This document shows, piece by piece, positions 1,760-64,000 of a DNA stretch of 64,000 nt. A program made the position numbers and the translations under genes. The DNA is taken from positions 48,727,351-48,791,350 of the forward strand of contig CP141140.1 of the NCBI GenBank assembly GCA_035235625.1, written 5' to 3'. The notes under the pieces were generated by a model that did not search any database, had not been told where the DNA came from, and saw nothing but the letters and a program-made list of their open reading frames with translations. The DNA comes from Saururus chinensis. Lineage: Eukaryota; Streptophyta; Magnoliopsida; Piperales; Saururaceae. Numbering within the stretch: position 1 is the stretch's first letter; each line of letters begins with the position of its first letter.

Positions 1760-1839
1760 ACTGCCCTCATATAATACTAAGGAGTAAGGACTGTAACAGC
1801 ATGCACGCACAAATATACCCCATGAAAAAAATTCTAGAT

Positions 1840-5752: not shown

Positions 5753-6324
5753 AAATCACGCATTTTTTTTCCACGATCCGAAATAGTGTCATTTTAACTT
5801 AGGATCCTTGTTATAAGTTTTTCTCTTTATAAAATTGATTAATAGAACTTGTATTATCTGTAACCTCATTATCATGTTGGATAATGTAATTCTCAATCTC
5901 AAGTCTTTTGCTATTTTGTATCAGTGTTTTATTGTGTGGAGTTTTGTTGCCTTCATATCGATTCTATAGTTTTTCTGACATTCTTGTGGCTTTTGGAAGG
6001 ATAAGTACAACAGCTGACACAAAAATGCAGTGTAAATAAGACGTGCAAAATTTATCTCTTGAAGTAGGTTTTTATGTTATTCAATGCAGTGGTTGACGTA
6101 TGTTGAAGAATTTGATACTAGCCAGAGGCTAATTATGTTTGTTTTTAAACTTAGCCAATTAACACATACCTTTTTGGTTGTCTTTGGGTAAATTAAAATT
6201 TAAAAAATTTACCAAAATAGACCTATATTCTATGCAAATAGTTTGGAATGTGCTCAGGTATACTGAAATTGCGAAATTAGATATGTGCCATTGAAGGTTG
6301 TATCTTATTGACGATAATGATGAT
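5753..6324. other. 3' flank of the two-exon gene
   Basis: AT-rich sequence without a gene. It should hold the 3' UTR and polyadenylation site of the upstream gene, but no canonical AATAAA is seen close behind the stop codon. Confidence 0.35.
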
Positions 6325-6394
6325 ACCTCCCATCAACGCGCGTTACTAATAACACATCTAACAATTGTTATTAGTAACACGTGTTGATGGGGGG
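6325..6394. repeat. Short foldback with 29-nt arms
   Basis: ACCTCCCATCAACGCGCGTT...AATAAC (6325-6353) is mirrored by GTTATT...AACACGTGTTGATGGG (6366-6394), with about 12 nt of loop. The pairing is nearly perfect. The CGCG/ACGTGT core stands out in AT-rich DNA. It may be a small foldback MITE or the end of a larger element. Confidence 0.6.
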
Positions 6395-6726
6395 TAGAAG
6401 CCTATAAATTAGATGTGTAAATAAATGTATAGGCATGGAGCACTATGTTTAGGAAAAAGAAATTTTATCTAAATTGCATGGACCCACCTTAATTGATCTC
6501 ATGTAATTACTAAAAAGTATTTTTAAAATTTTATACCTCCTTAATGCTGATATAATGGAGTATATTTGGTTTGTTCAACTTTAAACCTAGGAAGAATTTG
6601 GGTTTGAATTGTGACCAAGCTTTTTTTGGGCAAATTATTTAATTAAAAAGGGGCCAAAATTAAGTGCCTATCGATACGATATGAATGATACTATGGAAAC
6701 ATACCAAATTTTCTTGTGGGAGTTAC

Positions 6727-28824: not shown

Positions 28825-29433
28825 TGTAATGCACTAGTATGTCTACTTGGTATAACTAATGCAAAATAGGAGCAGAGGGATCTTGTTCTCAATCTAGCAT
28901 TTCAAAGAGAAGGAGGTGGCAATTCAAGTGCAATTGGGAGAAACTCTCCAAAAAAGCTTGGCCTTTGTTGCCATGGGAAGCAACTTGGCGATGACAAAGG
29001 CCAATATGGAAAATGACAACTCAATCTAGTCGAAAAGTTGCCGATCTCCTCGCTCCTCCTCCCTTGCTACCCGTGATCTCCTAATAGGTCCATTCCTAAG
29101 GACTTAGGAATTATAACCTAATTGGACCCTTTTCCCCTTAAAGCTCATTTCCTATTTTAATTAAATATCCCAACTTAAAGCCTCAATCCAATAAAGAAAA
29201 TTTTTGTAAGTTATAATTAACATAAGAAAGCCCACGATTTAAAATTCAGAATAAATCGCTTTATATCTTCAAAAAATAATCTCTTGTCCAACCTCCGTTT
29301 TTTGCGTTCTTAGTACTGTTACAATGGACTCAAAGTTTACTTTCTATTTATATAAAATTTACACTCCAAATCAATGTGTGCATGGAAGAATTAAATAAAT
29401 AAAATATTAGGGTCAAAATTATTGGTTGTTACA
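28825..29433 (-). mobile_element. LTR of a reverse-oriented Gypsy-type element
   Basis: The plus-strand copy starts TGTAATGCACTAG and ends ATTGGTTGTTACA, giving a perfect 5-bp terminal inverted repeat (TGTAA...TTACA) of a 609-bp LTR. On the minus strand it starts TGTAACAACCAATAATTTTG, preceded by a purine-rich AAGCTAAGTAGGA (29434-29446), the expected polypurine tract. So this is the 3' LTR of a minus-strand element; ACAAC (28820-28824) would be the target site. No second LTR was found in the window. Confidence 0.65.
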
Positions 29434-30050
29434 TCCTACTTAGCTTAAAAATGAACTTCATCCTCGAAGTTCGATAAGTATACAAAGCAAGTTCCTGCTA
29501 GGTCTTCTATGATTTCGTTGTACTACTATAATGTTTTCAAATCATTTTTCTTTTCTTAAAAATTTGAAAACAATCGTTAAATACATTAAAAAACATTGAG
29601 ATTTGTAGGTACTCTTATGGTGGAATTGAGGGAATAGATGTTGCCATAATCAATTCATCCCATTCCACATATGATCATACTTAAGAGCCTTGTTGAAAAA
29701 TTCATTGGGGAAAACTATTTTTCCATCATTATCCAATGGGATCATAACAAAGGAATTTCAAACTCTCTTAATGAAAACGTGCCACAAGAGATGACTTTGA
29801 AGTGGGGATAGACATAAGCAACGTAGTACTCCACTACTCACTTCTCTCAACCACTACACAACTTACAATTTAAAAATTTTGTAAATATTTAGCACTCAAC
29901 ATTCAACTTGTCAACATACAAACATAAAACTGGTGGCAAGTTGTTGGCCAGACATCCTCGAAATCATTGCCCACTCTTTTCCCTAATCTTAGAACTTTTT
30001 CAACAATCCAATAATCATACAAGAAATTTCAACAAGGAAAATGATATTCC
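29434..30050 (-). mobile_element. Internal 3' region of the same Gypsy-type element
   Basis: Minus-strand translation next to the polypurine tract gives SNFEDEVHF then stop, like the extreme C-terminus of many Gypsy polyproteins ('...FEDEV.F'). The rest of the segment has no long frame. It is repeated at 38650-39220 at roughly 85-90 percent identity, in the same orientation. The 5' part of the element (integrase, reverse transcriptase, protease) is absent. Confidence 0.6.
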
Positions 30051-30234
30051 TACTCTGAATCTTTACACTTCTCCTTACACCACTTATGTGGCACACTCTA
30101 TTCAAGTTTTGGCATGACAAAGAAAAGGGCAGACAAAGCCCGCCCTCCTGCATCTCACTGGAGGCAGCCTCTGCCTGCCTCTCCCTCCTACTTTATATTA
30201 GCTTCCTTCCCCAAACTTTACTGGTGTTTTGGCG

Positions 30235-30542
30235 ATGGAACTACTTATAGGCTTGCAGCAGTTGTGGGGGACGTTCAAAGTAGCCATTGTCTCCTACATG
30301 GCCTCTCTGTGGCCTCCTTCTTCACCCCTTGTCATGTTACTGGCCTTCTACTATGTGCTCTCAGGGTTCTTTGCACCTTTGCCCCAATTGAGGAAGAGGG
30401 AAGTTGGAGAGGAGATGGAGCCCCTACCACTCCAGCTGAGCGAGGTGATGAAGGAGGAGTTGAGGGCCTATGACGGATCCCACCCGAAGAAGCCCTTTCT
30501 CATGGCAATCAAAGGCCAAATCTACTACATCTTGCAGAGTAG
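30235..30542 (+). pseudogene. First exon of a membrane steroid-binding protein (MAPR/MSBP) gene, isolated
   Basis: The frame from the ATG at 30235 encodes about 102 residues matching the N-terminal half of plant membrane steroid-binding proteins: an N-terminal hydrophobic segment (about residues 29-47, with VMLLAFYYVLSGFF), an acidic linker with EEMEPLPLQL, and the start of the cytochrome-b5-like domain (EELRAYDGSHPKKPFLMAIK, then GQIY). In intact members the exon ends after '...IYDVSQSR' with a split Arg codon; here QSR is followed at 30543 by GTTTGTTGG, a usable donor in the same phase. The expected second exon (starting '.MFYGPGGPY', haem-like ligand residues) is not found downstream. YILQSR replaces the usual D(V)SQSR. 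Because the donor and following bases are kept, this looks like a DNA-level copy of exon 1, not a processed pseudogene. Confidence 0.75.
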
Positions 30543-31900
30543 GTTTGTTGGTCCTTTTGGTCTTTGTCAGTTGTTATTGTTGATTCTATTGGTTCTCTAT
30601 TTTCCAAAAAAATACTCATTTTTTCTACTAATCAATATTTTGAGCTTACTCAAGTTTGCTTCTTTGTGCTTTTTGTGTGGCTTTGAATATGTTCATTTCT
30701 AATAACCTGTAGTACTGAGCCTTTTCTATATGTACATGTCTTTTGATCATATCAATTTAAATTCCATGTCCTCCTAATGTTTAAGTGTATATGTTGGTAT
30801 GTAGGAAGATGTTATACAAGTAAATTAGACAAAAACATCTAATTGATGATAAATAGATATTACCCTTCTTTCTAATATAAGTTGATATGTTGATCTTCTT
30901 TATGTCCTAGATTTATATATGGGTAATAGAGCACTACATTGTTGTTGGATTCAACCTTAAGTCATTCTTAAGGGTCTTAAAAGGGACAAATTCCAATTAC
31001 AGTATTACACTTTTGTAGTCTATGTTTACATGAAAGTGGGAGCCCTCGGTGTTTTAACTATTTAAGTTCCTCTAAAAGTTCACATATGTGGCCTTCTTCA
31101 TCTGAATTGCTCGCCAATATTTTGTTTTACATGTTGAAGGTTATTGCTTTATGGAGGAATTTATCTAAGCTATTTTGATCTTGATTATAAGGTCCAGTTA
31201 CTTTTGTTTCCTTCTCTAGAATGCCTTTTGCTTTTCTCTTTGTTTTACTTTGTTGAATTTCTCCCGCTATTATTTTTTTTCATGTTAAATCAATACAAAC
31301 AAAACTCTGGTTGTTCAAGTTAAGATTATGACCATGAATGCTTGGTGTTTTCTTGTACTTGCACCTTGTTAATCCATCAATTGGAGGTAGGTTTACCTTG
31401 GATTTCTATTTGAATTTATTTTTTGTTCTGTTTCGTATGGGATCAACTTGTACATTCTATTAATGATCTATTGTCGAAATGCTAAACAGTAAAGTTAAAG
31501 AATTTGGTCATATCGACCATTTATTTGCATATCTAGACTCGTGCTTGAGCTTGAATCACTATACAGTGACCACATAACTTAGCTCAAATTTGACTTAGTT
31601 CTGACGTTGTCAAAAAAAATAATCTCCTTAACCACTTCACCTACAATACCTTTTGTGTTAAACATTTCATCAAATAAATATAATGTTCTCACCATTTAAA
31701 TACATTTTTTATCAAATATAATTTTATCACTTTGTCACTAAAGTTGTACGCTTGGCCCATATTATTTTAAATAATATTTGTACTTCTTTATATTGATTAT
31801 ATATTTTAATGCATAAAAATAGATGCAAATATATAATTAATATTTCTACTTTATTATACCAATATATACTAATTTCTTGGTAAAAAATAATATTATCAAA
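30543..31900. other. AT-rich sequence, no gene
   Basis: The beginning may be intron 1 of the copied MSBP gene. No exon 2 and no named repeat was found. Confidence 0.35.
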
Positions 31901-38616: not shown

Positions 38617-39220
38617 GCTAGGAGGAATTGAATAAATAAAATATTAGTGTCAAAATTATTGGTTGTTATATCCTACTTAGCTTAAAAATGAACTTCATCC
38701 TCGAAGTTTGATAAGTATACCAAGCGAGTCTCGCTAGATCTCCTATGATTCCATTGTACTACTATACTGTTTTCAAATCATTTTTCTTTTCTTGAAAATT
38801 TGAGAACACCCGTTAAATATGTTCAAAAACATTGAGACTTGTGGGTACTCTTATGGTGGAATTGAGGGAATTGATGCAACCAGAATCACTTCATCCTATT
38901 CCACATATGATCCTACTTAAGAGCCTTGTTGCAAAATTTATTGGGGAAAGCTATTTCAAACTCTCTTAATTAGTGCCACAAGAGATTTTTTGAAGTGGGA
39001 ATAGACATAACCAGTGTAATACTCCACTACTCACTTCTCTCAACCACTACACAACTTGCAATTTGAGAACTTGCAAATATTTAGCACTCAACATTCAACT
39101 TGTCAACATACAAACTGGTGGCAAGATGCTGGCCAGACATCCTTGAAATAGTTGCCCACTCTTCATAACCTTAGAACTTTTTCAACAATCCAACAATCAT
39201 ACAAGCACTTTCAGCAATCC
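38617..39220 (-). mobile_element. Second copy of the Gypsy 3' internal region with an LTR stub
   Basis: The segment matches 29383-30045 with a few short deletions: TAAATAAAATATTAG, ATTGGTTGTTA(C/T)A, CTTCATCCTCGAAGTT and TCAACATACAAAC. Only about 50 bp of LTR (the U3 start on the minus strand) is left at 38617-38666; beyond it the sequence differs. This copy is therefore truncated within its 3' LTR. Confidence 0.7.
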
Positions 39221-39809: not shown

Positions 39810-41772
39810 CATGGTTATGCAGAATAAACTAAAAATTCTCAAAGAATTTTGAAGGAGACCTTAATACTAAACTTGCATCTCATTTTTTCAATTGAATTTT
39901 CAAAAACAAACATGTAAAAGAATACATATGCTTGTTTCAAAGCAAAGTTTTTAGAAATATGTTTTGTCGGAGAAAAAACATAGCTCTCAAAACAATGTTT
40001 TCTAATAGATTTGTTTCCAAAAAACATGATTTCAAGAATCTGCATGTGAGTTCAAGGAAAATTTTTCAAAAGCACATGTATAGCATATTTTCAAAAAAAT
40101 ATTTTTAAAATATACATAACATGTTTCCCAAACTAACAGCAAGTGTTAGATTTTTCAGAAAAAATATTTTCAAAATCTACATAACATGCTTCCCAAACTC
40201 ACAACAAGTGCTAAAAAAAAGTATGCAAAAGGTATCAAAAAGTATTTTTCAAACACGACATGGCAAGATTTGAAAGTGCAAGGTTTGAAAATTATATTTC
40301 TTAGGTTAAGCTACTTAAGAAGCATAACGGCCCAACATGCTTCTTACGTAGCTAAAAAACTTCACTTTTAAATTCGAAAGCAGTATTCATTCTTGGAATA
40401 GAAGTTTTGAAATCCTTTCAAAATTCAAAACTACTATTTTTAAACCTTTTCTTCATAGATTTATAGTTTTGGGAAACAAGAGTTTTCAAAAATCACAAAT
40501 TGTGAAAAGAAAGTTTTAAATTACATTTTAATTAGAGTCATAGTTAAAAACAATAATTTACTTTTATTTTTTGTAATCAAGTGATGCACTTTCTATTATC
40601 TTCTTTTGAAAAATACCATGCAATTTGAAAACTAATCATGCAATCATGAAAGCATACTATGCAACTTAAAAATTATTTTAGAACATACACAAGTAGTTTT
40701 TATAATTTTTATCTTTTGAAAAAATGATGTGCAAATATTTGATAATCCAGTTTGGAAATATAACATGCAACTTATGAAAACATGATTTGCAGTTTAGAAT
40801 TCCTTTTGAAAACTCATGACTTAAAATAGCTCTTGTTTTGAAAACATGATTTTCATATGCCCACTATAATTCTTGTAACATGATTTAAAACACAAATGTT
40901 TTGAAAAACATATGCTATGATGATGTTATTATGAAAACAGTTATGATTTTGAAAACATAGTTGTAGAAGAAAACATGTATTTCTTCAAAAATTTACATTG
41001 TTCCTTTGGGATGAAAAAAAAATCATTTAGGATGGTTAGTGTGTATCACAAAATTTTGGACAAGTCCTTATCGTTCAATCAGTGTTCTAACCTAGTCATT
41101 CTATGTATATGTATAATATTTCCCTCTTAACTACTTGTGGCCATAGAGGCACAAGAAGCCAACTAGAGAGTCAGAGAGAGCACAAGCTAGTGGAGGTGGA
41201 GTGGAGAAGCCAAAGACGGACGAGGAGGTGGAAGAGGAGTTAATTGCCGACATGACTACTAGAATCAGAATCAGTGAGAAAAGAACAAAAGAAGTAGAAG
41301 TCGATCACATCAATGTGGACTCCACCTACTGACCCAGGCTAACCACACATGACTATCAAAACAAGTTAGTAGTCAGGTTGGCTTTTAAAAACATTGTTTC
41401 TATGTGGGGCAGCAATGACTAGAGAGTTACAAAAAAAAAGCCCGTCTTAATCTATCTTCAGCGTGAGTAGCAACGAAAAGAGGAGCAAAGAGCATTGGAG
41501 GGGAAGGGAAAAATTAGAGAGAGAGAAAGCACAAGCCAACACAGAGGGGGAGAGGAGTAAAAGCCAAAAACGAAAGGAGTCGATTGACCCAGGCTAACCC
41601 CAACATGACTGCCAAAATGGGTTCATGAGAAAAGAACAAAAAAGAAGGGACTTAAGTCAGGTTTGGCTTATAAAACATTGCTTCCATGTGGGGCAACAAA
41701 GATCGGAGAGTAAACAAAAAGATCATCTCCCTACCAAGGAGGATTTGTCCATGTTGGATAATCTTTAGGTAA
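39810..41772. repeat. Array unit 0, first part
   Basis: This is the first and most diverged copy of the 2.0-2.6-kb array repeat. Landmarks are GAGAAAAAACATAGCTCTCA (about 39970), the TTTTGAAAAC-rich AT part (40080-41000), AGTCCTTATCGTTCAATCAG (about 41064), a purine-rich GAGAGAGCACAAGC block (about 41175) and GACCCAGGCTAACC (41331). The last part is doubled within the unit (41140-41420 and 41440-41700). It is cut by a MULE at 41782. Confidence 0.7.
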
Positions 41773-48130: not shown

Positions 48131-50665
48131 TATTGATACAAGAACCATAATTTTCACAAATATGCATGACATGATTTCAAAAGCAAGTTTGGAAAAGTGC
48201 AATTTTGAAAAGAAATTTAAATAACTAGGCTAACAAATTTTCAAAATTTATATCACGTTTTCATATTGACTTTTCAACAAAAAAAACAAAAGAATACATA
48301 TGCTAGTTGCATAGCAAGTTTTCATAAAACATATTAGTTCAAGATTAATTTTCCAGAGAAAAAACTCAGCTCTCAAAATATTTTCTAAAAAGATTTGCTT
48401 CTAACAAACATAATTTCAAGACTCTACATGTCATTAGTTCAAGGGAAATTTTTACAAAGCAACTACATAGCATATTTTCACAAAAATAGTTTCAAAGCCA
48501 TGCTTCCCATACTCGTAGCAAGTGTTAGAAAAAAGTATTCAACATGTATAAAAATAATATTTTTCAAATACATGCTCAGCTTTATATGGCATGATTTGAA
48601 AACGCAAGGTTGAAAACAATTTTTCTTAGGTTGTTAAGCTACTTAAGAAGCTAAATATTTCACTTTTAAATTGAAAAGCAATATCCTTTCTTAGAACACG
48701 TGTTTTGAAATCCTTTCTAAATTCAAAACTACTTTTTTTAAACCTTTCCTTCATAGTATTTAAAAACAAGTTTTCTTCAAAAAACACAAATTGTGAAAGG
48801 AGAGTTCTAAATCATAATTTAATAACAGTCATAGCTGAAAACGGTAATTTACTTTTATTTTCTGAAATTAAGTGATAAACTTTCGGCAATCACCTATCAA
48901 AAAATACCATACAATTTGAAAGCTGATAATGCAGTCTTGAAAACATACTATGCAACTTGAAAATTATTTTAGAAAATATGTAAGTAGGTATTTTCATTTT
49001 TATCATTTGAAAAAAAAGGTGTGCAAATATTTGATACTCTAGACTAGAAACATAGCATGCAACTTTTGAAAACCAGTTTAGAAATTCATTTTGAAAACTC
49101 ATAACTAAAAAACTCCCTTTTTGAAAACGTGATTTTCATAAGCCATTTATAATTTTTCAACGTGATTTTAAAAGTAAATATTTTAAAAAACATATGCATA
49201 ATATGCACCTTTTGAAAACATACTTTACAATATAGAAATTCATTTTGAAAACTTATGCCTAAAAAACTCTTGTTTTGAAAACATGCTTTTCATAAGCCTT
49301 TCATCATTTTTAACATGATTTTAAAAACAAATGTTTTGAAAAACATATACTATGACAATGTTATTCTGAAAACAAAATGATTCTAAAAACATAGTTGTCT
49401 AAGAAAACATGTTATTACTTCCAAAAACTACATAAGTACTTTAGGATAAAAATAAATTTTCAATTAGGATGGTTAGTGTGTATCGTGTATCACAATATTT
49501 CGGAGAAGTCCTTATCGTTTAGTAAGTGTCCTAGCCCAATCATCCTATGTATGGGTACAATTGTTTCCTCTTAACTACTTGTGGCAAAACAAGCGTTGGG
49601 TAGTCAAAAAGTTTGTGGTCATGCTTCTTTGGAGCGAGTAGCTAGGGAAAGAGGAGCAGAGAACACCATATGCGCAAGGAGCCAATTAGAGACAAAAAGA
49701 GAGAGAAGAGAGAGAGAAAACTAACAGGGGGAGGAGAAGCCAAAGATAGATGAAGAGGCTAGGGAGGAGCCGATTGACCCAAACTAACCCGACGTGACTA
49801 CAAAAATGGGTTAGTGAGTAAAGATCAAAAAGAGGTCAAAGGGAATGACATCAAGTCGACCCTGCCGATTGACCCGGGCTAACCTTACATCACGACTATC
49901 AAAACAAGATAACTCATAGAGAGAAGTTAAAAAGTCATAAGGAAATTGACCTCCGAGAGCTTATCTGGCATATACCTAGAAAGACTTCTTATGAGGAATT
50001 GATGTTAGACTTCAGCAAATAAAAGAAAGAAATAATAGATAGAAGTCAACAATGCATTTTCTATATCTATGAGTTGTAGGAGTTTGCAATGTCTCGGCTA
50101 TATCTATGAGATGTTGATATTTGAAATATCTCAAACAAAACATCACAATTATTTCTCATATCTTGGACCCCTTTCAGACCTCATTCGTGACTTTTCCCTA
50201 CTCATACCCCCTGCCCCCGTCTTTTCATCCTTCCATTTTTCACTCTCAATGGCCAAAACGAATCCATTTCTTGCATCCTCATGTGTGTATTTAAGTACCT
50301 AATGACGTGGGAAGACTATTGCGCCCACTCGGATTCTTATATGCTTAGTTTTTCGGTTTTCTACCACATCACTCCAAATATTTATTGCTAAACAATCTAG
50401 TGACTACTAAATTCAATTTAGATATACACCATGTTAACCATTGGCATTATCTTAAAACTTGCTAGAAAAAAAAACATGATGATTTCAAGAATATGCTGGT
50501 CATTAGTTAAAGGAAATTTTTGAAAAGCATCATCTGCATAACATATTTTTAAAATTTACATTGTCTTGTTTCCAAAACTTAGTGCAAGTGTTCAAAAAAA
50601 AGTTTGCAGGAGCTATCAAAAACATAGTTTTCAAATACATGATCAGTTTTAAATGACATGATTTC
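48131..50665. repeat. Array unit 1
   Basis: Carries all unit landmarks in order: GCATAGCAAGTTTTC (about 48309), CTCAGCTCTCAAAATATTTT (about 48364), AATTGTGAAAGGAGAGTT (about 48788), TCCTTATCGTTTAGTAAGTG (about 49509), GCGAGTAGCTAGGGAAAGAG (about 49635), CGATTGACCC (49771), TATCTCAAACAAAACATCAC (about 50127) and AGTACCTAATGACGTGGGAA (about 50294). No durable frame runs through it. Confidence 0.8.
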
Positions 50666-51142
50666 ATGTTTTCAAATTAAATTTCAAACACAAAATTGTA
50701 AAACAATACATATACTTGTTGCATAGAAAGTTTTTCAAAACAAAATATAATGATCATATTTTGTCAAAGAAAAACCCAGCTCTCAAAAAATTGTTTTCTA
50801 AAAGATATGCTGAAATATAACTTGATTTAAAAAAACTACATATCATTTGTTCAAAGGAAAATCTTCAAAAGCATCTACATATTTTCATAAAAATATTTTC
50901 AAAATCTACACGCCAAGTTGCCTAATCTCCCAGCAAGTGTTCAAAAAAAGAATGGATCAGAAAGATATTTTTCACAAAAAAATGATAAGCTTTACATGAC
51001 ATGATTTGAAAGTACGAGGTTTAAAAATGATTTTTCTTAGGTTGTTCAGCTACTTGAGAAGCAAGTGGGCCCAACATATTTCTTAGCTAAAAATTTCGCT
51101 TTTAAATTCCAAGGCATAATTCTTTCTTAAAACAGGAATTCT
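50666..51142. repeat. Array unit 2, left part
   Basis: It begins at the CATGTTTTCAAATTAAATTT landmark and proceeds normally to AAAACAGGAATTCT, where the LTR retrotransposon is inserted. The remainder resumes at 55686. Confidence 0.8.
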
Positions 51143-51644
51143 TGACATAAGAGGGTTTCTTCCTCTTCTTTTAGGAGTCCCTCTCAGGTTATGCCACATG
51201 TATGCCCACATGTCCAAAGGCTAACAGGGGTAAACCTATCCAGCTTCTAGAAGCGTCTCTAGGCAAAGGTGAAAAGGGAGGGGCACACTAGTCAAATTCA
51301 CAGTCAGAAGTCCATTGGGGATGAAAAGAGGGAATAAGAGGGAAAGAAAGGCAGATTGGAGGCATGATTAAAAATTGGCAAATATTATGTTCTAGAAATT
51401 TTATTTCTTTTCTTTGTAAAGCTCATGGATTTGAGCTGAGTTATGCTGTGGATTCAGCCTCTGTAATTTCAATCTTCTACTATAGTGAACAGCTTGTGGA
51501 TTCAAGGTTCCTATTACTGTAATTCTAGGAAACTGAATAGAAATACTCCGGTCTTTCTTCCATTTCCCTGAGTTTAGTGTTTAGCTTTGTATAATCTATT
51601 TAGGTCAATTGTGTGCTTGTTGTTTCTGAAATTGAACTGCATCA
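51143..51644 (+). repeat. 5' LTR
   Basis: It starts TGACATAAGAGGGTTTC and ends AAATTGAACTGCATCA. Length 502 bp. It shares CCCTCTCAGGTTATGCCACA, GTCCATTGGGGATGAAAAGA and GAACAGCTTGTGGATTCAAG with the 3' LTR. Confidence 0.92.
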
Positions 51645-51647
51645 TTT

Positions 51648-51662
51648 TGGCGCCATTTGTGG
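51648..51662 (+). other. Primer-binding site (tRNA-Asp type)
   Basis: TGGCGCCATTTGTGG lies 3 nt after the 5' LTR. TGGCGCC is complementary to the 3' end of plant tRNA-Asp, used by many Gypsy-type elements; pairing after the first eight bases is imperfect. Confidence 0.7.
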
Positions 51663-51682
51663 ATATCTAGAGAGAGATTTCC

Positions 51683-52900
51683 ATGGCTGCTCCACTTCCC
51701 ACTGAACCTTCTTTGTAGTTCATTGTAGAGCTTCGGTAGCAGTGGAACCAAGTCCAGCAACAGCAGCAACAAACCCAGTTGCAGCTTCAACAAACTCAAC
51801 TCCAGCTACAACAACTACTCCAACAGATGCAGCACCTTAAGCTCCTCATTCCGCCACCCCCACCAGTCGCTGGAGTTGGTGCCGACCCAGAACTGCAAGC
51901 AGAGGCGGGAGACAGAAGTTTTCCGCCAGAATAGAACAACGGAAGAACTGGGCTTCTGTTTTCTTATGGATGGCCACTGGAACCGCCGGTCTAAGGGTTC
52001 GCAGGTGGACAAGAACAGTATGGCAGACGGCATGGGTTCCCAGGACGACCAGAGCATCAAACCGGTATGGGTGGCCCACCTCCAGGGTCACCCATCGATT
52101 CCCGGGATGACCAGAACAGAACGGAAGAACTGGGCTTCCGTTTTCCTGTGGATGGCCACTGGAACCGCCGGTGCAAGGGTTCCTAGGTGGACAAGAGCAG
52201 TATGGCGGGCAACATGGGTTCCCAGGACGACCAGCGCATCACTGCAGAAAGGAGGGATTTCTGGGACAGCCGAAAATGACTGGCGACAGGGACGACTACT
52301 AGTTCCCTGGCGGAAGACCGTTTGGATGATTTTTGCCAGATGGGAAGGGATCTCCAGGGGGACCTACCGGCACCTTTCTACCCTCTCTAGTCGCAGTTGG
52401 CCACCACCTGAACCCCTCAACGCCCTGTAGCGCCACCCCTGTTTCCTCATGAGGACTCCATTGAAGAAGATGAACCAGTGGCTCCTTATAGAGACCGTCC
52501 AATAAACAGCGGATGGGTGGCATGATTTGCGCCAGACAACTACGCTCCACCGGACGCTTGAATCCCTGGCAGATGACCTTCTGGGTTTCCGCCAAGAGAT
52601 GAGACACTGGGGGAGAGGCCGACTCAACGACGGCAGACAGCAGGGTTTTCCGCCTAGTACCGGTGTGCTGGGAGGGGTCTTTATCACAGCGAAAGACATC
52701 CAGACTTCCTGCCTGGAATTTGGCCGCCACTGGGATGCCTGAACAGGAGCGGGAAGACCACTTGGAGAGAGAGATGCTAACCCTCCCCTGCACCAAAGAG
52801 GACTGGCGGGTCGACAACTTCCACCTTAAGACGATTCCAATGAAGAAGAGGAAGAACATTCCCCACTCCCCACCGGCCAGAGTATGCAAGGAGGAAAATC
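51683..52900 (+). pseudogene. Decayed gag-like region, Gln/Pro/Gly-rich, with internal duplication
   Basis: From the ATG at 51683 the frame reads MAAPLPTEPSL, stop, then a Gln-rich helix (QVQQQQQQTQLQLQQTQLQL) and LLIPPPPPVAGVGADPEL, before further stops. A later frame repeats a Gly/Arg/Pro-rich stretch. A 130-bp piece (GGAAGAACTGGGCTTC(T/C)GTT, GGATGGCCACTGGAACCGCC, CATGGGTTCCCAGGACGACC) occurs at 51941 and again at 52123, period 182. Such low-complexity N-terminal regions are seen in Gypsy gag-type proteins, but no gag zinc knuckle is visible. Several stops and frameshifts show it is not functional. The 290-codon minus-strand frame (52299-53171) is antisense to this and not considered real. 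Confidence 0.55.
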
Positions 52901-53673
52901 GAGATGGACCACAACCAGTTACATTGCCGTTGACGGATGCAGATGAGTCTGTGCTTGAGCTCATCTCTCTGCTGGCTTCTGAACTTGTGCTTCTGGACAA
53001 CGTTGAGTTGATTCCAAAAATTTTGGATCTAACAGTGGGTGCATTTGAAGAGATGTAGACAGATCTGAATTTTATAGAGCTGACAAAGGAAGGTGCAGAC
53101 TGTGAAGCCTCAATTACAGATTTGAAAGCAGAAATTGAAGCATCACAAATTTCCTGCCAACTGCCCTCCACCCCTGGAAAGTGGAAGGAAGAAGCTAATT
53201 CAAGTTACAAAGTAGAACAAAGTGAAAAGGGCTCATGCATGGAATATCCAATTCAAAGGAGCAGCAGTTGTTTAAAGAAAGTTACCAAAAATGGGAACCT
53301 ATCAGAACCCACGATCTGGAGCCACAAGTTACTTGCTCACTACCATCTATTACACAAGATTTGAGAGAAGGAGCTAGTCCTAGTTCAGAGTGTAGAGGAA
53401 GCAGTTTCAGCCTTGATCATCTCAATTGGCATAAAAATGCAAATACCTCTCCTTTCGGATGGTGATGCTGTAGAAGAAGATATTGATACTGAAAAGATTG
53501 AGGAGCATGGGCATAACACCAGTTTCATCTATAGTCCTCGGCAAATGCAAAAACATGAGTTTAGAAGACAAGCTATGTATGATGACTGGCTTGAAAGGAT
53601 CTCTAACAATGTGGAACTTCGTGAGGTTTATGAAAGGGGAAGTGTAACAACTGCTTTGACCAGTGAATTAAGA
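52901..53673 (+). pseudogene. Captured or internal coding fragment of unknown origin
   Basis: Acidic, helix-rich frames follow one another: LTDADESVLELISLLASELV and LTVGAFEEM (to 53058), then after one stop ELTKEGADCEASITDLKAEI. From 53413 the frame [40 protein letters not shown] and [20 protein letters not shown] runs without a break into the P4-ATPase piece. Codon use and composition are host-gene-like, unlike the gag-like part. I do not recognise the donor gene or genes. It could be a third captured gene or more of one of the two that follow. Confidence 0.5.
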
Positions 53674-53922
53674 GTTATAACTGAGGTGGATGAAGAGATT
53701 GGAAAAATCTTGTACGAAGCTGAATCACCAGATGAAGCAGTCCTTGTTGTAGCTGCAAGAGAAATAGCTTTTGAATCTGTTAATAGGACCCAAACAAGTA
53801 TATCACTTCTTGAGTTAGATCTTGGAACAAAAATGGAAAGAACATATAATCTACTGAACAGTTTAGAGTTTGATAGTTCAGGAAAGAGGATGTCAGTCAT
53901 AATTAGTGATGAAGATGGTGAT
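53674..53922 (+). pseudogene. Captured P4-ATPase (phospholipid flippase, ALA-type) fragment
   Basis: Residues 88-170 of the 236-codon frame read [20 protein letters not shown], then [20 protein letters not shown] and [20 protein letters not shown] with VIISDEDGD. This is the nucleotide-binding-domain stretch of plant aminophospholipid ATPases ('[24 protein letters not shown]', '.Y.LLN.LEF.S.RKRMSVIVRDE.G'). Intact proteins are about 1100-1200 residues in membranes of the secretory pathway and flip lipids between leaflets. Here only about 83 residues remain; the phosphorylation motif (DKTGT) and all membrane helices are absent. The piece is intron-free and fused in frame at both sides, so it cannot work as a flippase. 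Confidence 0.85.
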
Positions 53923-54800
53923 GCTACCAAGAAGCTTAGTGGACAACCTGCGTTTATTGAACTACTGATGCAGTACTTGCGTGGTTACAGTAAGGAAGAG
54001 GAACTTGGTGTGTTGATTCTCAGTGATCTATCATCTACAAGGAGAGTTGGAAGGTCGGGATATCACTGCTGGCTCTTTCAAAGAGCTGTCAACTTTTCTG
54101 CTTCATCTAGATTTTTTCCATAAAAAGGATCATAAATATGATGTGGAATTCTTGCCACCTGATGGCAGTGCTTATCTGTTTGATACCAGACATATTGAAA
54201 AGAGTTTGGGTTTAAGATGTTGGGATCATTCAAAATGTAAAGCATCTAAAGAATCGCAGAAAGTATGCTGCTGCACATCTGTAATGCAAACAGCATGGTG
54301 TTTTACATGGACTCCAAGCATTATGCATTGAAAGCCCTCAATTCTGTTTTAGCTGTCTCTTTGATAGATGTAAATAAGAGACCTGCTTCATTCGGCCAAG
54401 ATAAAGGAGGAGAAGGTTGCTGAGTCATGCATAAATCACCTTTTGGAAAGTTTGCAGATTACATCCGAACCTTTAATTCCTTCCCCTGATTGGTAGACAA
54501 CATCGTGAGCTATCTTAAGAGGCAAGGAGAATTGCTGCTGTATTTTACCAAATATTTATCTAGACAGATTTCCTCAGCACTACCAGTGCATACCCATATT
54601 GGTACACATCATATCAAAGCTTCAGGCAAAGTTCTTAAGAGTTTTAGTTGATGTCAAGCCATCTGCTGCTGAACTTAAGGAGACATTCAAACTCTTGTTC
54701 ACCTTGCTTCTGATGTATGTCGAGTACTGTTTTCAATCAGATCTGCAGGAAAAGTCTGAAAATCTTACCACCTTCATTTTGGATATTATGTGGTGTTTTA
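53923..54800 (+). pseudogene. Captured fragments probably from a Nup188-like nucleoporin gene
   Basis: Directly after the ATPase piece the frame continues [20 protein letters not shown] and [12 protein letters not shown] (to about 54030). A small frameshift leads to [40 protein letters not shown] and SAYLFDTRHIEKSLGLRCWD (to about 54240). Later shifted frames give HYALKALNSVLAVSL, AESCINHLLESLQ, LKRQGELLLYFTKYLS and VLVDVKPSAAELKETFKLLF. The helical-repeat character and order recall the plant Nup188 homologue, a large nuclear-pore scaffold protein, from memory only; another large helical-repeat protein is possible. No intron-like breaks separate the blocks, indicating a spliced-RNA source. 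Stops and frameshifts make it dead. Confidence 0.5.
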
Positions 54801-55160
54801 TAGGCATTACTGGGTTTTATTTGAAGCTGTTCCCAAGACTATTTTTAAAGCCAGAGTACAGAATGGAAGCGTTTATATTATTGCTTTACCTATGAGAATC
54901 ATTCTTTGGTTTTGTGTCATGGAAGCAATACCAATTGAAGAATTTGTTTTGCTCTAGAATGATTAGCCCTTGATATTACTTCTAAGAATTTTCTTGTGGT
55001 TTGAAGAACCTCCACCTGGCCAATATTTTGGTGTTATTGCTGAGATCGATGACCCAACTTTGGCTGTACTTCATCTACAAATCTCGACTCTCCCCCAGCA
55101 ACAAAATCATTCACTCCCAGGTTGTGGCATCAGTTCTATTGCTCGAGGACGAGCTTCTTT
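54801..55160 (+). other. 3' interior of the retrotransposon
   Basis: A last frame (54970-55182) includes EEPPPGQYFGVIAEIDDPTL; a parallel frame gives SVLLLEDELLLGGRD next to the polypurine tract, like the 'LEDE(L/V)LF..GG' tail of many Gypsy polyproteins. This would be the only trace of the original pol end. Confidence 0.4.
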
Positions 55161-55174
55161 TGGGAGGGAGGGAC
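55161..55174 (+). other. Polypurine tract
   Basis: TGGGAGGGAGGGAC lies immediately before the 3' LTR, where plus-strand priming is expected. Confidence 0.8.
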
Positions 55175-55685
55175 TGATGTAGGACAGGTTTCCTCCTCTT
55201 CTTTTGGGAGTCCCTCTCAGGTTATGCCACATGTATGCCCACCTGTCCAAAGGCTGACAGGGGTAAACCTGTCCAGCTTCTAGAAGTTGTCTCTAGGCAA
55301 AAGGGAAAAGGGAGGGGCAGACTGGTCAAATTCACAGTTTGTTATAACAAACTGTCAAAAGTCCATTGGGGATGAAAAGAGGGAAAGAAAGGCAGATTGG
55401 AGGCATGATTCAAAATTGGCAAATATTATGTTCCAGCAATTTTATTTCTTTTCTCTGTAAAGCTCATGTATTTGAGCTGAGTTATGCTGTAGATTCAGCC
55501 TCTGTAATTTCAATTTTCTAGTGTAGTGAACAGCTTGTGGATTCAAGCTTCCTATTACTATAATTCCAGGAAACTGAATAGAAATACTCCAATCTTTCTT
55601 CCATTTCCCTGAGTTTAGTATTTGGCTTTGTATGATCTACTTGGGTCGACTGTGTGCTTGGTGTTTCTGAAATTGAACTGCATCA
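55175..55685 (+). repeat. 3' LTR
   Basis: It starts TGATGTAGGACAGGTTTCC and ends AAATTGAACTGCATCA. Length 511 bp. Unlike the 5' LTR it contains an extra perfect palindrome, CAGTTTGTTATAACAAACTG, at 55335-55354. Confidence 0.92.
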
Positions 55686-57530
55686 GTTCTGAAATCATTT
55701 CAAAATTAAAAACTACTTTTTTTAAACCTTCCTTCATAGATTTGTAAGTTTTTGAAAAAATACAAATTGTGAAAAGAGAGTTTTAAATCATTATTTAATA
55801 AGAGTCATATAGTTGAATATGATAATTTACATTAATCTTCTGACATCAACATATGCACCTTCCATTATCACCTTTCGAATAATACTATGCAATTTGAAAA
55901 CAGATCATGCAGTCCTGGAAACATACTACAAAACTTGAAAATATTTTAAAAAAATGCAAGTAGTTTTATAAATTTTTATCTTTGAAAAAAGGACGTGCAA
56001 ATATTTGATAATCCTATTTGAAAAAATAACAAGCTTCTTTGGAGTGAAAACATGATTTTCAGTATAGAAATTCATTTTGAAAACTCATGCCTAAAAAATT
56101 CATGTTTTAAAAACATGATTTTTTTAAACTTTTATAATTTTAAAAACCAACATTTTGAAAAACATATGCTATGATAATGTCATTTTGAAAACAAAAATGA
56201 TTTTGAAAACAAAGTTATTTAAGAAAACATGTTATTACTTCCAAAAATTACATAATTACTTTAGGATAAAAATAAATTTTCAGTATCACAATACTTCGGC
56301 AAAATCCTTATCCTTTAATAAGTGCCCTAGCCCAGTCATCCTATGTATGGGTAGAGTGTTTCTTCTTGACTACATGTGGCGAAACAGGCATTGGGCAGTC
56401 CAAAAGTTTGTGGTCTTGCTTCTTTGGTGTGAATAGCAAGGGAAAGAGGAGTAGAGGGCACCAGATGCTCAAGGAGCTAATTAGAAAGAGAGAGAGAGAG
56501 AGCAAAGCCAATGGAGGGAACAGGAGGAGGAGAAGCCAAAGATAGATGAGGAGGCTGGGGAGGAGCCGATTGACACAGGCTAACCCGATGTGACCACTAA
56601 AATAGGTTAGTGAGAAAAGAACAAAACGAGGACAAAAGGAATGACATTAAGTTGACCCTGCCGATTGACCAAGGCTAACCTTACATGACTATCAAAAAAA
56701 GATAAATCATGGGGAGAAGTTAAAAAGTCATAAGGAAATTCGCCTCCGAGAGCTTATGTGGCATATATACCTAGAAAGACATCTTATAAGAAATTGATAT
56801 CAGACTTTAGCAAAAAAAGAAAGGAATAATAGATGGAAGTCAACAATGCATTTTCCCACTCCCGGACACTTACCACTTCCCTTAGAGTTGTAGGAGTTTG
56901 CAATGTCTCAACTATATCTACAAGATGTTGATATTTGAAATATCTCAAACAAATATCACAATTGTTCCCCATATTTTGGACCCCTTCCAGACCTCATTCA
57001 TGACTTTTTCCCCACTTGTGTTACCCTCGGCCCCAATCCTTTCATCCTTCCATTTTTCACATTCAATGCTGGCCAAAATGAATCCATTTCTTGCACCATC
57101 TTCCTAGGCATGGTTATAACAGGTATGTGTATTTAAGTACCTAATGACGTGGGAGGAATATTGTGCCCACTAGGATTCTTATTTGCATAGTTTTTCGGTT
57201 TTCTACCACGTCACTCTAAATATTTATTGCTAAACAATCTAATGACTACTAAGTTCAATTTAAATACACCATCATTTTAATCATTGACATTATCTTAAAA
57301 TTTGCTCAAAATCAAAATAACTTGATTTTAAGAATATGCAGGTCATTAGTTTAAGGATATTTTTGAAAAGCATCATCTGCATAACATATTTTCAAAATCT
57401 GCATTGTCTTGTTTCCAAAACTCAGAGCAAGTGTTCAAAAAAAAGTTTGCAATAGCTATCAAAAACATAGTTTTCATATACATGATCAGCTTTAAATGAC
57501 ATGATTTCAAAGTGGAAAGTATAAAAACTT
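55686..57530. repeat. Array unit 2, right part
   Basis: It resumes with GTTCTGAAATCATTTCAAAA and continues through AAATTGTGAAAAGAGAGTTT, CCTTATCCTTTAATAAGTGC (about 56308), GAAAGAGAGAGAGAGAGAGC (about 56485), the GATTGAC block (56566) and ATATTTTGGACCCCTTCCAG (about 56970). With the left part it makes one full unit of about 2.3 kb. Confidence 0.8.
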
Positions 57531-59595
57531 GCATATCGTGTTTTCAAATTAAATTTCGAACACAAAATTGTAAAAGAATACATATGCTTGTTGCATTGCA
57601 AGGTTTCAAAAACAAAATATAAAGATCATGTTTTGTGAGAGAGAAAACCCAGCTCTCAAACCATTGTTTTCTAAAAGATAGGTTTCAAAAAAACTTGATT
57701 TCAAGAAACCACATGTCATTATTTCAAAGGAAATTCTTCAAAAGCATCTACATGTTTTCATAAAAATACTTACAAAATCTAAATGTCAAGTTTCCCAATC
57801 TCATTGCAGGTGTTCAAAAAAATATACATCAAAAAGATATTTTTTAAATAAATGATAAGTTTTACATGGCTTGATTTGAAAGTGCAAGGTTTAAAAATAA
57901 TTTTTCTAAGGTTTGTTAAGCTACCTACTTAAGAAGCATGCGGGCCCTACATCTTCTTACTTAGCTAAAAATTTCACTTTTAAATTCCAAAGTAGTATTC
58001 TTTCTTAAAACAGGAGTTCTGAAATCCTTTCAAAATTAAAAACTACTTGTGTTAAATGTTCCTTCACAGATTTATAACTTTTTGAAAAAACTGAAATTGT
58101 GAAAAGAGTTTTAAATCATTATTTAATAATAGTCATATAGTTGAAAACAATAATTTAATTTATTTTTCTCAAATCAACTGATGCACCTTCAATTATCACC
58201 TTTTGAAAAATACCATACAATTTGAAAATAGATCATGCAATCCTGAAAGCATACTACGAAACTTGAAAAATAATTTAAAAAATATGCCAGTAGTTTTATA
58301 AATTTTCATCTTTTGAAAAAAGGACATGCAAATATTTGATAATCGAGTTTGAAAAAATTACATGCTTTTTTGGCATGAAAACATGATTTTCAATATAGAA
58401 ATTCATTTTGAAAACCCATGCTTGGAAAACTCTTGTTTTGAAAACATGATTTTCATAAGCCTTTTATAATTTTTAAACATGAATTTAAAAACAAATGCTT
58501 TGAAAAACATATGCTATGATATTGTTATTCCAAAAACAAAAATGATTCTAAAAACATAGTTGTTTTAGAAAATATGTTATTACTTCCAAAAATTACATAA
58601 TTACATTAGGATAAAAATGAATTTTCATTTATGATAGTATGTATCGTGTATCACAATATTTCGGAGAAGTCCTTATCGTTTAATAAGTGTCCAGCCTAGT
58701 CGTCATATGCATAGGTAGAATTATTTCCTCTTGGCTACTTGTGGCAAAACAGGTGTTGGGTAGTCCAAAAGTTCGTGGTCATGCTTCATTGGCGTGAGTA
58801 GAAAGGGAAAGAGGAGCACAGAGCACCAAAGGAGCAAAGAGCCTATTAGAGAAAGACATAAAGAGAGAGATCAAGCCAACGGAAAGGGAGAGGAGAAGCT
58901 GATTGACCCAGGCTACCCGACATGACTACTAAAATGGGTCAGTGAGAAAAGAACAAAAAGAGGACAAAGGGAATGACATCAAGTTGACTCTGCCGCTTCA
59001 CTTGGGCTAACCTTACATGACTATGAAAAAAAGATATCTCATGGAGAAAATATTAAAAAGTCATAAGGAAATTCACCTTCGAGAGCTAATCTGGCATATA
59101 CTTCGAAAGATTTCTTATGAGAAATTGATATCAGGCCTCAACAAAAAAAGAAGGGAATAAAAGATGGAAGTCAACAATGCCTTTTTCCACTCCCGCACAC
59201 CTATAACTTCCCTCGAAGTTGTAAGAGTTTGCAATGTCTCAGCTATATCTCTAAGATGTTGATATTTGAAATATCACAATTATTCCCAATATGTTGGACC
59301 CTATCCAGACCTCATTCGTGACTTTTTCCGAACTCGTGCCCCCTTGCCCCAGTCCTTTCATCCTTACATTTTTCACTCTGGCAGCTGGCCAAAATAAATC
59401 CATTTCTTGCATCATTTTCCTAGACATGAGTATGATAGGTGTATGTATTTTAAGTACCCCTAATGGCGTGGGAGGAATATTGCGCCCACTTAGATTCCTA
59501 TAAGCTCAATTTTCAAGTTTTTCACCACGTCACTCCAACTATTTATTGCATATCATGTTTTACATGGTATGATTTGAAAGTACAAGGTATAAAAA
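57531..59595. repeat. Array unit 3 (short by about 250 bp)
   Basis: All main landmarks are present (CCAGCTCTCAAACCATTGTT about 57649, CTTATCGTTTAATAAGTGTC about 58672, GATTGACCCAGGCTACCCGA 58901, ATATGTTGGACCCTATCCAG about 59289). It lacks the roughly 250-bp block that in other units follows the 'TTATTGCTAAA' landmark, so its period is only about 2.07 kb. Confidence 0.8.
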
Positions 59596-61845
59596 CTTGC
59601 ATATCATGTTTTCAAATTAAATTTTCAAATAGAAAACTTTAAAAGAACACATATCCAGGTTACATAGCAAGTTTCCAAAAACAAATCCAAAGATCATGTT
59701 TTGTTAAAGAAAAAACATAGCTCTCAAAACATTGTTTTCTAAAAGATATGTTTCATAAAAACATGATTTCAAGAAAAGTATGTCATTAGTTCAAAGGAAA
59801 ATCATCAAAAGCATCTACATATTTTCATAAAAATATTTCCAAATTATACATGGCAAGCTTCCCAAACTCACAGCAAGTGTTCAAAAAAAAGATGTATCAA
59901 AAATATATTTTTCAAATAAATGATCAACTTTACATGGAATGATTTCAAAGTGAAAAAGGTTTAATAATAATTTTTCTTAGGTTGTTGAGCTACTTAAGAA
60001 GCATGAAGGCCCAACATGTTTCTTATTTAGCTGAAAAATTCATTTATTAATTCCAAAACAGGAGCTTTGAAATCCTTTCAAAATTAAAAACTACTTTTTT
60101 TTAACCTTCTTTCATAGATTTATATGTTTTTGAATAAACACAAATTATGAAAAGAGAGTTTTATAATACGATAATTTACATTAATTTTCAGAAAGCAACT
60201 GATGCACCTTCAATTATCACCTTTCAAAAAATACCATGCAATTTGAAAACATATCATGCAATCCTAAAAATATACTACGAAACTTGAAAATTATTTTTAA
60301 AAATATGATAGTAGTTTTATAAATTTTTATCAATTGAAAAAAGGATGTGCAAATATTTAATAATCCAGTGTGAAAAAATAACATGCTTCTTTGGCATGAA
60401 AACATGATTTTAAATATAGAACTTCATTTTGAAAACTCATGCCTAAAAAATTCTTGTTTTGAAAACATGATTTTCATAAGCCTTTTATAAGTTTTAAACA
60501 TGATTTTAAGAACAAGTGTTTTGAAAAGCATATGCCATGATAATGTTATTCTAAAAACAAAAATGATTCTGAAAACATAGTTGACTAAGAAAACATGTTA
60601 TTTCTTCAAAAAATTACATAATTACTTTAGCATAAGTCCTTATCGCTTAATAAGTGTCTTCGCCCAGTCATCTTATGTATAGGTAGAATTGCTTCCTCTT
60701 GACTACTTGTGGCGAAACAGGTATTGGGTAGTCAAAAAGTTTGTGGTCATGCTTCTTTGGCATGCGTAGCAAAGGAAAGAGGAGTCAAGAGCGCCAGAGG
60801 CCCAAGAAGCCAATTAGAGAAAGAAAGAGAGAGAGAGAGCAAGTCAATGGAGGGGGAGATGAGAAACTAAAGACAGAAGAGTCTGGGTAGGAGCTTATTG
60901 ACCCAGGCTAACCTCGAGGTGACTACTAAAATAGGTCAGTGAGAAAAGAACAAAAGTGGACAAAGGGGACTACATCCTGTTGACCTTGCCGATTGACCCA
61001 GGCTAAGGCTAACCTTACATGACTATCAAAAAGGATAACTCATGGGGAGATGTCAAAAAATAGTGAAGAAAATTTACCTTCGAGAGCTTATCCGACATAT
61101 ACCTAGAAAGACTTCTTATGATAAATTGATATTAGACTTCAGCAAAAAAAGAAAGGAACATTAGATGAAAAGTCAACAATGCATTTTCTCACTGGGGCAC
61201 ACGGACAATTTCCCTCAAAGTTGTAAGAGTTTGCAATGTCTTAGCTATATCAATGAGATTTTGATATTTGAAATATCTCAAACAAAATATCACAATTATT
61301 CCCCATATCTTGGACCACTTTCAGACCTCATTCGTGACTTTTTCCCCACTCGTACCCCCCCGGCCCTCCTTTCATCCTTCCATTTTCACTTTGCAAGCTG
61401 GCCAAAACGAATTCATTTATTGCATCATCTTCCTAGACATGAGTATGACAAGTATGTGTATTTTAAGTACCTAATGATGTGGGAAGAATGTTGCGCCCAC
61501 TTTGATTCCTATAAGCTTAGTTTTCAAGTTTTCCACCACGTCACTCAAACTATTTAATGCTAAGTAATCTAGTGACTACTAAGTTCTATTTAGAGATATA
61601 TCATCATGTTTATCATGGCCATTATCTTAAAACTTGTTAGAGTGACGTGTTTAAGAATACAGGTCATTAGTTTAAGGAAATTTTTGACATTCATCATCTG
61701 CATAGCATATTTTCAAAAATCTACAGTGTCTAGTTTCCAACTCATGAGTTCAAAATAGTTTGGAATAGGTATCAAAAACATAATTTCAAATACATGATCA
61801 ACTTTACTTGGCATGATTTGAAAGTATAAGCTGTAAAAAACATGC
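59596..61845. repeat. Array unit 4
   Basis: Landmarks in order: ACATAGCTCTCAAAACATTG (about 59715), CTTATCGCTTAATAAGTGTC (about 60640), GAAAGAGAGAGAGAGAGCAA (about 60822), TTGACCCAGGCTAACC (about 60898), ATATCTTGGACCACTTTCAG (about 61304) and ACCTAATGATGTGGGAAGAA (about 61469). Confidence 0.8.
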
Positions 61846-62530
61846 ATATCATATTTTCAAATGGAATTTAAAATGCAAAACTATAAAAGAATACATATGT
61901 TGGTTGCATAGCAAGTTTTCAAAAACAAAATCCAAAGATAATGTATTGTTAGAGAAAAAACCCAGCTCTCATAACATTGTTTTCTAAAAGATATGTTTCA
62001 AAAAAACATGATTTCAAGAAAACTACATGTCATTAGTTCAAAGAAAAATCTTCAAAAACATCTATATATTTTCATAAAAATATTTTCAAAATCAACATGC
62101 CAAATTTCCTAAGCTCACAGCAAGTGTTCAAAAAAAGTATGCATTAGAAAGATATTTCTCAAATCAATGATCAGCTTTACATGGCATGATTTGAAAGTGC
62201 AAGGTTCAAAAATTATTTTCTTAGGTTGTTGAGCTACTTAAAAAGCATGTAGGCCCAACTTGTTTCTTACTTAGCTAAAAATTTCACTTTTAAATTCCAA
62301 AGCAGTATTCTTTCTTAAAAGAGGAGTTTTGAAATCCTTTCAAAATTAAAAACCACTTTTTTTAAACCTTCCTAGATTTATAATGTTTTGAAAAAACACA
62401 AATTGTGAAAAGAGTGTTTTAAATCATTATTTAATAAGTCATATAGTTGAATACAATAATTTACTTTAATTTTTTGAAATCAACTAATACACCTTCAATT
62501 ATCACCTTTCGAAAAATACCATGCAATTTG

Positions 62531-62966
62531 AAAACAGATCATGCAGTCTTGAAAACATAGTATGTAACTTCAAAATTATTTTAAAAAATATGCAAGTAGT
62601 TTTATAAATTTTTATCTTTTGAAAAAATGACGTGCAAATATTTGATAATCCTGTTTCAAAAAATAACATGCTTCTTTGGCGTGCAAACATAATTTTCAAT
62701 ATAGAAAATTTATTTCGACACCTCATGCCTAAAAAAACTCTTGTTTTGAAAACAGATCATGCATCCTAAAAACATACTACGTAACTTCAAAATTATTTTA
62801 AAAAATATGTAAGTAGTTTTATAAATTTTTATCTTTTGAAAAAAGGACATGCAAATATTTGATAATCCTGTTTGAAAAAATAACATGCTTCTTTGGAGTG
62901 AAAACATGATTTTCATGATTTCAGAAGCCTCATTTTGACACCTCATGCCTAAAAAACTTTTGTTTT
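62531..62966. repeat. 218-bp tandem duplication in unit 5
   Basis: AAAACAGATCATGCA at 62531 and 62749 begins two copies, both passing through AAGTAGTTTTATAAATTTTT and ACACCTCATGCCTAAAAAA. Confidence 0.9.
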
Positions 62967-63148
62967 GAAAACATGATTTTAAAAACAAATGTTTCGAAAA
63001 ACATTTGCTATGATAAAAATGATTGTGAAAAAAAATGATTATGAAAGCATAGTTGTGTAAGAAAACATATTATTACTTCCAAAAATTACGTAATTACTTT
63101 AGGATAAAAATGAATTTTCATTTAGGATGGTTAGTGTCTATCGTGTAT

Positions 63149-63396
63149 CACAATAAGTCGAAGAAGTCCTTATCGTTTAATAAGTGTCCTAGCCTAGTCA
63201 TCCTATGTATAGGTAGAATTGCTTCCTCTTGACTACTTGTGGTGAAACATGCATTGGGTAGTCAAAAAGTTTCACAATAAGTCGAAGAAGTCCTTATCGT
63301 TTAATAAGTGTCCTAGCCTAGTCGTCCTATGTATAGGTAGAATTGCTTCCTCTTGACTACTTGTGGCGAAACATGCATTGGGTAGTCAAAAAGTTT
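63149..63396. repeat. 124-bp tandem duplication in unit 5
   Basis: CACAATAAGTCGAAGAAGTC to GGGTAGTCAAAAAGTTT occurs at 63149-63272 and 63273-63396, nearly identical. Confidence 0.93.
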
Positions 63397-64000
63397 GTGG
63401 TCATGGCAAGGGAAAGAGGAGTAGAGAGCACCAAATGTGCAAGGAGCCAATTAGAGAAAGAAAGAGGAGGCAGAGAGAGCAAGCCAATGAGGGGCAAAGG
63501 AGGAGAAGCCAAAGACAAATGAGGAGGCTAGGGAAGAGCCGATTAACCCAGGCTAACCCGACGTGACTACTAAAATGGGTCAAGGAGAAAAGAACAGAAA
63601 GAGGACAAAGGGGATGACATCAAGTGTTGACCCTGCCGATTGACCCAGGCTAACCTTGCATGACTATCAAAAAAGAATAACTCATGGGAAGATATTAAAA
63701 ACTCATAAGGAAATTTACTTCTGAGAACTTATCTGGCATATGGCATATACCTAGAAAGACTTCTTATGCGAAATTGATATCAAACTTCAGCAAAAAAAGA
63801 AAGGAATAATAGGTGGAAGTGAACAATGCATTTTCCCACTCCCGTAAACCTACAACTTCCCTCAGGGAGTTTGCAATGTCAGCTATATTTATGAGATGTT
63901 GATACTTGAAATATCTCAAACAAAATATCCCAATTATTCCCCATATCTTGGACCCCTTCTGGACCTCATTCGTGACATCCTTCTATTATTCACTCTGGCC

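Follow-up and report, generated by a model that had tools for sequence, protein, structure and literature searches.

Among long terminal repeat (LTR) elements of plants, Bs1 of maize carries segments of three host genes, for a proton ATPase, a xylan endohydrolase and a beta-1,3-glucanase, together with a new chimeric gene, according to the accessible part of a published account (PMC13317346). In the same part, BARE-2 and Veju are presented as template-switch chimeras, for which a switch between co-packaged RNAs was proposed (PMC13317346). A maize survey, in the accessible portion of its text, counted 425 LTR elements with gene pieces, representing at least 189 captures, and, under its conditions, encountered no element that combined fragments from two or more standard nuclear genes (PMC2774510). 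The present analysis concerns a window of 64,000 nucleotides of Saururus chinensis (C1:48727351-48791350, contig CP141140.1; genome of 516.46 Mb in 11 contigs), in which an LTR element at 51143-55685 contains intron-free pieces of three host genes. To our knowledge, the capture of several genes by a single LTR element is known mainly from Bs1. It is proposed, with a probability of about 0.86, that spliced pieces of three host mRNAs replaced most of the coding interior of this Ty3/gypsy-related element via template switching, and that its single insertion on C1 was then amplified with a tandem array. Positions given without a contig or locus name are those of the window, other stretches of the same genome compared with the element are named L009-L030, and divergences are Kimura two-parameter (K2P) distances. 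Since the genome searches scored the best candidates only (40 of 270 for the chimera, 40 of 133 for the dispersed repeat of the 54756-55174 region and 40 of 130 for LTR-related sequences), the copy numbers reported are lower bounds.

The three captured pieces lie one after the other on the plus strand, as do all features of the element described here. The first, at 53140-53677, corresponds to a RING-finger gene on C3 (near 49948.6-49949.2 kb, minus strand of L018); the element lacks the 195-bp intron of this gene (GTACAT...TTGCAG). The same locus encodes downstream a C3HC4 RING domain (PF13920, E 3.7e-9), and we infer that this domain and the matched exons form one gene. The second piece, at 53671-53918, derives from a P4-ATPase gene at C10:35781772-35782765 (L029), of which it matches 35781772-35781945 and 35782686-35782765 without the 742-bp intron between them (GTCTCT...CTGCAG); its identity is given by PF13246 (E 1.6e-5) and by P4-ATPases in PDB (best E 8e-12). 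The third, at 53918-54760, matches a Nup188 gene on C11 (L015:3733-5938) and lacks its introns of 334, 898 and 119 bp, all GT...AG, the first of which rests on a 15-base exon end; its identity is supported by PDB entry 9sob_B, 'Nucleoporin (DUF3414)', with E 5.4e-12. In all, five parental introns, each with GT-AG ends, are exactly absent from the element. A preliminary description, made from the letters of the window alone, had recognized the P4-ATPase piece and a probable Nup188 piece joined without introns, all of which was borne out, and had proposed at least two spliced host transcripts; this minimum holds, although the count is three, as the RING piece had been overlooked.

The parents of the three pieces are located on separate contigs, and no normal host gene with the order RING-P4-Nup188 was present among the matches listed (best 40 of 270 candidates). 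Between its LTRs, the element combines spliced segments of several unlinked host genes, which is the mark of a Bs1-like multi-gene transducing element. The location of the parents also bears on a read-through transduction, in which transcription of the element continues into an adjacent host gene and the spliced RNA is copied. Such transduction has been reported for plant LTR elements, as far as the accessible part of the source goes (PMC13317346), but here the three parents sit on three contigs and the captured pieces occupy an inner position, flanked by backbone on either side, which would demand three events, each followed by an internal deletion. This route is considered very unlikely.

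It was verified that the paired LTRs, the primer-binding site (PBS), the polypurine tract (PPT) and the near-matching 5-bp flanks previously noted are all in place, and that empty insertion sites exist too. The 5' LTR (51143-51644), with TG...CA ends, and the 3' LTR (55175-55685) share 92.5% identity over 492 aligned sites, corresponding to a K2P of 0.080. A PBS-like sequence, TGGCGCCATTTGTGGA (51648-51663), follows the 5' LTR, and a related motif is found at the same position in all six related elements compared (L014, L019, L020, L021, L022 and L025), while the PPT, GGGAGGGAGGGAC (55162-55174), precedes the 3' LTR. Between these, a gag-side backbone remnant (51645-52867) shows a Q-rich start, P/G-rich repeats and a broken frame, with parts similar to L021, L022, L023 and L024, and is followed by a module Y (52833-53139) common to L025-type elements. 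No host parent of module Y was found; the candidate at C5:37564528 (L030) is a short match of 82% identity that is interrupted by stop codons. No reverse transcriptase was detected in the interior, as already claimed from the letters: a Pfam search of 10 open reading frames (ORFs) gave a single match above the curated cut-off, the P-type ATPase, and when 50 ORF segments from three relatives that carry pol were used as tblastn queries, E <1e-4 was reached solely at 52490-52868, on the gag side, while the strongest match elsewhere (E 0.002, at 53524-53616) fell within the RING piece. The stretch 51143-55685 is a dead, non-autonomous, Ty3/gypsy-related LTR element without a reverse transcriptase of its own.

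Downstream of Nup188, the 3' backbone, here called W (54756-55174), consists of an old dispersed repeat (54756-55016) and a 3' end region (54997-55174). It was considered as a further recently captured gene, and this was rejected because numerous dispersed copies, at about 75% identity, match its first part. At some loci of this repeat (for example C6:31.576-31.578 Mb and C3:40.68 Mb), adjoining stretches match the L016 sequence downstream of RING as well, so that an older element may be the backbone.

The borders between the modules offer a view of how the pieces may have been joined. At RING/P4, the two sides overlap by 7 bp (AGAGTTA, 53671-53677) when L016 and L020 are taken as partners, or by 5 bp when the two genes are, and at Nup188/W the overlap is 5 bp (CTGAA, 54756-54760) with L014 as the partner for W; in random junctions, 7 bp were reached in about 0.07% (0.0007) and 5 bp in about 0.65% (0.0065) of draws. 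Two of the three junctions would fit switching at short matches, so that the overlaps partly support template switching. The same borders were relevant to an assembly at the DNA level, in which processed pseudogenes made by long interspersed nuclear elements (LINEs) landed successively in an old LTR element. Nested insertions are frequent in repeat-rich plant DNA, and processed pseudogenes would likewise yield intron-free pieces. However, at RING/P4, P4/Nup188 and Nup188/W the pieces abut directly and in one orientation with no poly(A) between them, and the longer target duplications of LINE insertions, sought by eye at these borders, were not seen. Two of these borders show overlaps of at least 5 bp, and a single reading frame extends over RING, P4 and the first part of Nup188; successive pseudogene insertion is accordingly rated as highly improbable.

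Further evidence comes from relatives with other sets of modules. L014, on C8, is a separate and younger element (LTRs 97.2% identical, K2P 0.029) whose target duplication, GAGTA, differs from that of the window element, and yet the RING-P4 junction is identical in both. Its P4 piece is longer and runs past another apparent splice site (GACAG/GTATG in the gene versus GACAG/TGTC in L014), and the module after it finds its best non-element match (76%) in an 1805-codon open frame at C3:46592647-46593003, which we take to be a NO VEIN-type gene; Pfam and PDB searches with this frame gave no match. RING without P4 is carried by L016, L017 and L019. Within the stretches examined, L016 and L017 showed no LTR pair, and no intact parent gene for the L016 sequence after RING was recognized among the better of 33 listed matches, which were elements and degraded repeats. 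In L020 (C8:34853500-34862500, at 5750-6604 on the minus strand), an LTR element contains a pentatricopeptide repeat (PPR) E-motif piece (PF20431, E 7.3e-9; best match outside the element C4:10086151-10086393, 68%) and, immediately after it, a P4-ATPase piece; this P4 piece extends further upstream than that of L014, and RING is absent. Pieces of L014, L016 and L025, like the large C3 gene, yielded no useful match in PDB. The Nup188 piece was seen in no element other than the window copy and its five C1 sisters. In a separate observation, L025 (C1:64480500-64488000, element at 1747-6660) is a young relative with LTRs 97.6% identical and the target duplication ATCTG, carrying long open frames of unassigned origin; matches to parts of this cargo occur at more than 10 dispersed loci.

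Since independent relatives hold RING without P4, RING with P4, or PPR with P4, this lineage gathered its genes stepwise, and modules were probably exchanged between elements. The nested sharing of modules leads to the order RING, then P4, then Nup188 in the window lineage, which is likely and agrees with the divergence of the pieces from their parents at all sites (0.1185 for RING, about 0.07-0.08 for P4 and 0.028 for Nup188). The same distribution of modules suggests that the RING-P4 pair arose by recombination between L016-like and L020-like elements. As for the enzymes, L021, on C5, encodes zinc-knuckle (CCHC), RVT_1, RNase H, H2C2 and rve domains, with reverse transcriptase, RNase H and integrase in this order along the minus strand, and L022 is 86% identical to it; these two are plausible relatives of a helper. 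A broader reading, in which the lineage would be a running exon-shuffling machine that repeatedly takes up spliced mRNAs (RING, P4-ATPase, Nup188, PPR and the large gene presumed to be of NO VEIN type), exchanges modules by copy choice and thereby produces new combinations that transpose, is considered moderately likely.

Some results weigh against this account of template switching and stepwise capture. The remaining junction, P4/Nup188, overlaps by only 1 bp, which about 45% of random draws reach, and the partners for the overlaps were picked with the junction already known. Between the LTRs of the window element and the LTR regions of L021 and L022, identity reaches only about 75-80%. Additionally, the divergence between the LTRs (0.080) exceeds that between Nup188 and its gene, so that the dates fit no single simple clock, and synonymous sites alone do not put P4 (0.019, one change) before Nup188 (0.032).

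Under the favoured explanation, RNA of the element would have been packaged together with host mRNAs in particles that came from relatives carrying pol. At short shared stretches the reverse transcriptase would have switched templates, by which segments of mRNA entered the new DNA copy; jumps between two co-packaged element RNAs would then hand modules onward. RING, shared with L014, L016, L017 and L019, would have been captured first, P4, shared with L014, added to it, and Nup188 acquired last, after which the finished element would have been inserted once on C1, in a tandem repeat with units of about 2-2.3 kb, and multiplied with the array.

The insertion itself is well delimited. The target-site duplication on the left of the window element reads ATTCT (51138-51142), decayed from the GTTCT that is found in sister copies and is single in the empty site, and that on the right reads GTTCT (55686-55690); L010, L011 and L013 have GTTCT on both sides, and L009 has GTTCT and ATTCT. 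In the element-free unit next to L012, which reads GAGTTCTGAAATC, the 5 bp GTTCT occur once. When the flanks of the window element were joined, they aligned across the joint to the element-free units at 62030-62627 (87%), 57716-58321 (85%) and 59783-60342 (78%), and also to the units at 40152-40724 (75%) and 48431-49015 (74%) and to L012 (85%), and therefore the element is a true insertion into the tandem repeat. This host repeat, with units of about 2.0-2.3 kb, occupies most of 49213-63976 around the element, and six probes gave unit spacings of 2001-2642 bp, apart from one of 4330 bp, due to a missed unit, and one of 218 bp. The AT-rich repeat also occurs at 48250-49197 and 39869-41149, its units being 71-88% alike and the stretch 55691-63976 having 31.8% GC. 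Inside the array, 63148-63396 comprises two 124-bp direct copies that are 98% alike.

The preliminary description had envisaged a non-autonomous family and a genome search for other copies of the chimera. Such copies do exist, at least five further large ones, all on C1 (at about 51.04, 51.09, 51.14, 54.55 and 54.68 Mb) and all bordered by the same AT-rich repeat, but they go back to amplification of the array after one insertion, not to transposition. In fact, the join of the left flank to the 5' LTR is common to all five sisters, and that of the right flank to the 3' LTR is shared by four of them (L009, L010, L011 and L013), L012 being broken off within the 3' LTR and then continued by an empty unit; L012 and L013 are partly rearranged. 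The sisters diverge by 0.080-0.098 in the left flank, by 0.045-0.091 in the LTRs and by 0.054-0.075 in the right flank of the four, with 0.148 for the L012 unit. This shared insertion site and the like divergence of flanks and element indicate one insertion that was afterwards multiplied with the array, and the five copies were accordingly rejected as proof of repeated transposition of the chimera. The C1 copies thus provide no evidence that the finished chimera transposed repeatedly; that captured pieces have transposed is indicated by relatives such as L014.

An open frame of 252 codons (53365-54123) runs through RING, P4 and Nup188 in frame, the first part and the tail lying in other frames. 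It is open over 244 codons in L010 and 223 in L009, which end at the same place, and this raises the possibility that the chimera was retained by the host or the element as a working gene, comparable to the one proposed for Bs1. Such retention would be compatible with capture by template switching, and it could be favoured by the RING piece, in which the nonsynonymous rate (dN) is below the synonymous rate (dS) in all five gene-element pairs and in nine of ten element-element pairs (raw counts), as well as by the dN/dS of Nup188 against its gene, which lies at 0.51-0.86 in all C1 copies but L012, which was left out (five of six). On the other hand, constraint acting on the gene would by itself be expected to give gene-element ratios below 1, and the P4 piece of the window differs from the gene by 16 nonsynonymous changes and one synonymous change, with dN above dS in all three element-element pairs. 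Moreover, the Nup188 pieces show 6-10 gap events across the six copies (the gene reference carries three extra intron bases near its start, which may add one gap event), and the cross-module frame has only 137 codons in L011 and was not found by motif search in L012 or L013. The case for selection on the cargo is therefore weak, with mixed signals; the RING part may be under selection, whereas the remainder looks like decay, and a retained working gene has, on these sequence comparisons, only a slim chance of being correct.

Elsewhere in the window, a direct repeat of about 600-650 bp (29384-30035 and 38621-39217; 82.7% identical, 9.2 kb apart) perhaps represents the LTRs of an old element, and the sole ORF of at least 150 codons between its copies (30202-30702) had no Pfam match.

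Compared with described systems, the window element resembles L021 and L022 of the same genome in its related LTRs, gag-side start and PBS/PPT layout; it differs from L021, in which gag and pol domains are recognizable, in having none. With those LTR elements of maize, rice and sorghum that have captured gene fragments it shares the presence of gene pieces inside the element; unlike the elements of the maize survey, as presented in the accessible part of that source, it holds three host genes. The same mechanism is proposed as for BARE-2 and Veju, although in those an element is fused with another element or with unknown DNA, and here identified spliced mRNAs are joined. A literature search over titles and the openings of abstracts, with few subscription journals covered, retrieved no report of such a lineage, which may be described elsewhere. 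The lineage illustrates how mobile elements can shuffle exons from different genes. Its intermediate stages persist within one genome, and therefore the order of capture, the junction partners and the role of recombination between elements are directly testable. The closest parallel, judged from its published description, is Bs1, likewise an LTR element with pieces of three host genes and a hybrid frame. The two differ in the genes and the species concerned; unlike Bs1, the Saururus chinensis element has relatives with partial module sets surviving in its genome, which make the order of gain and the exchange between elements readable, and its finished chimera increased in number along with a tandem repeat array, a separate route for the multiplication of chimeras.

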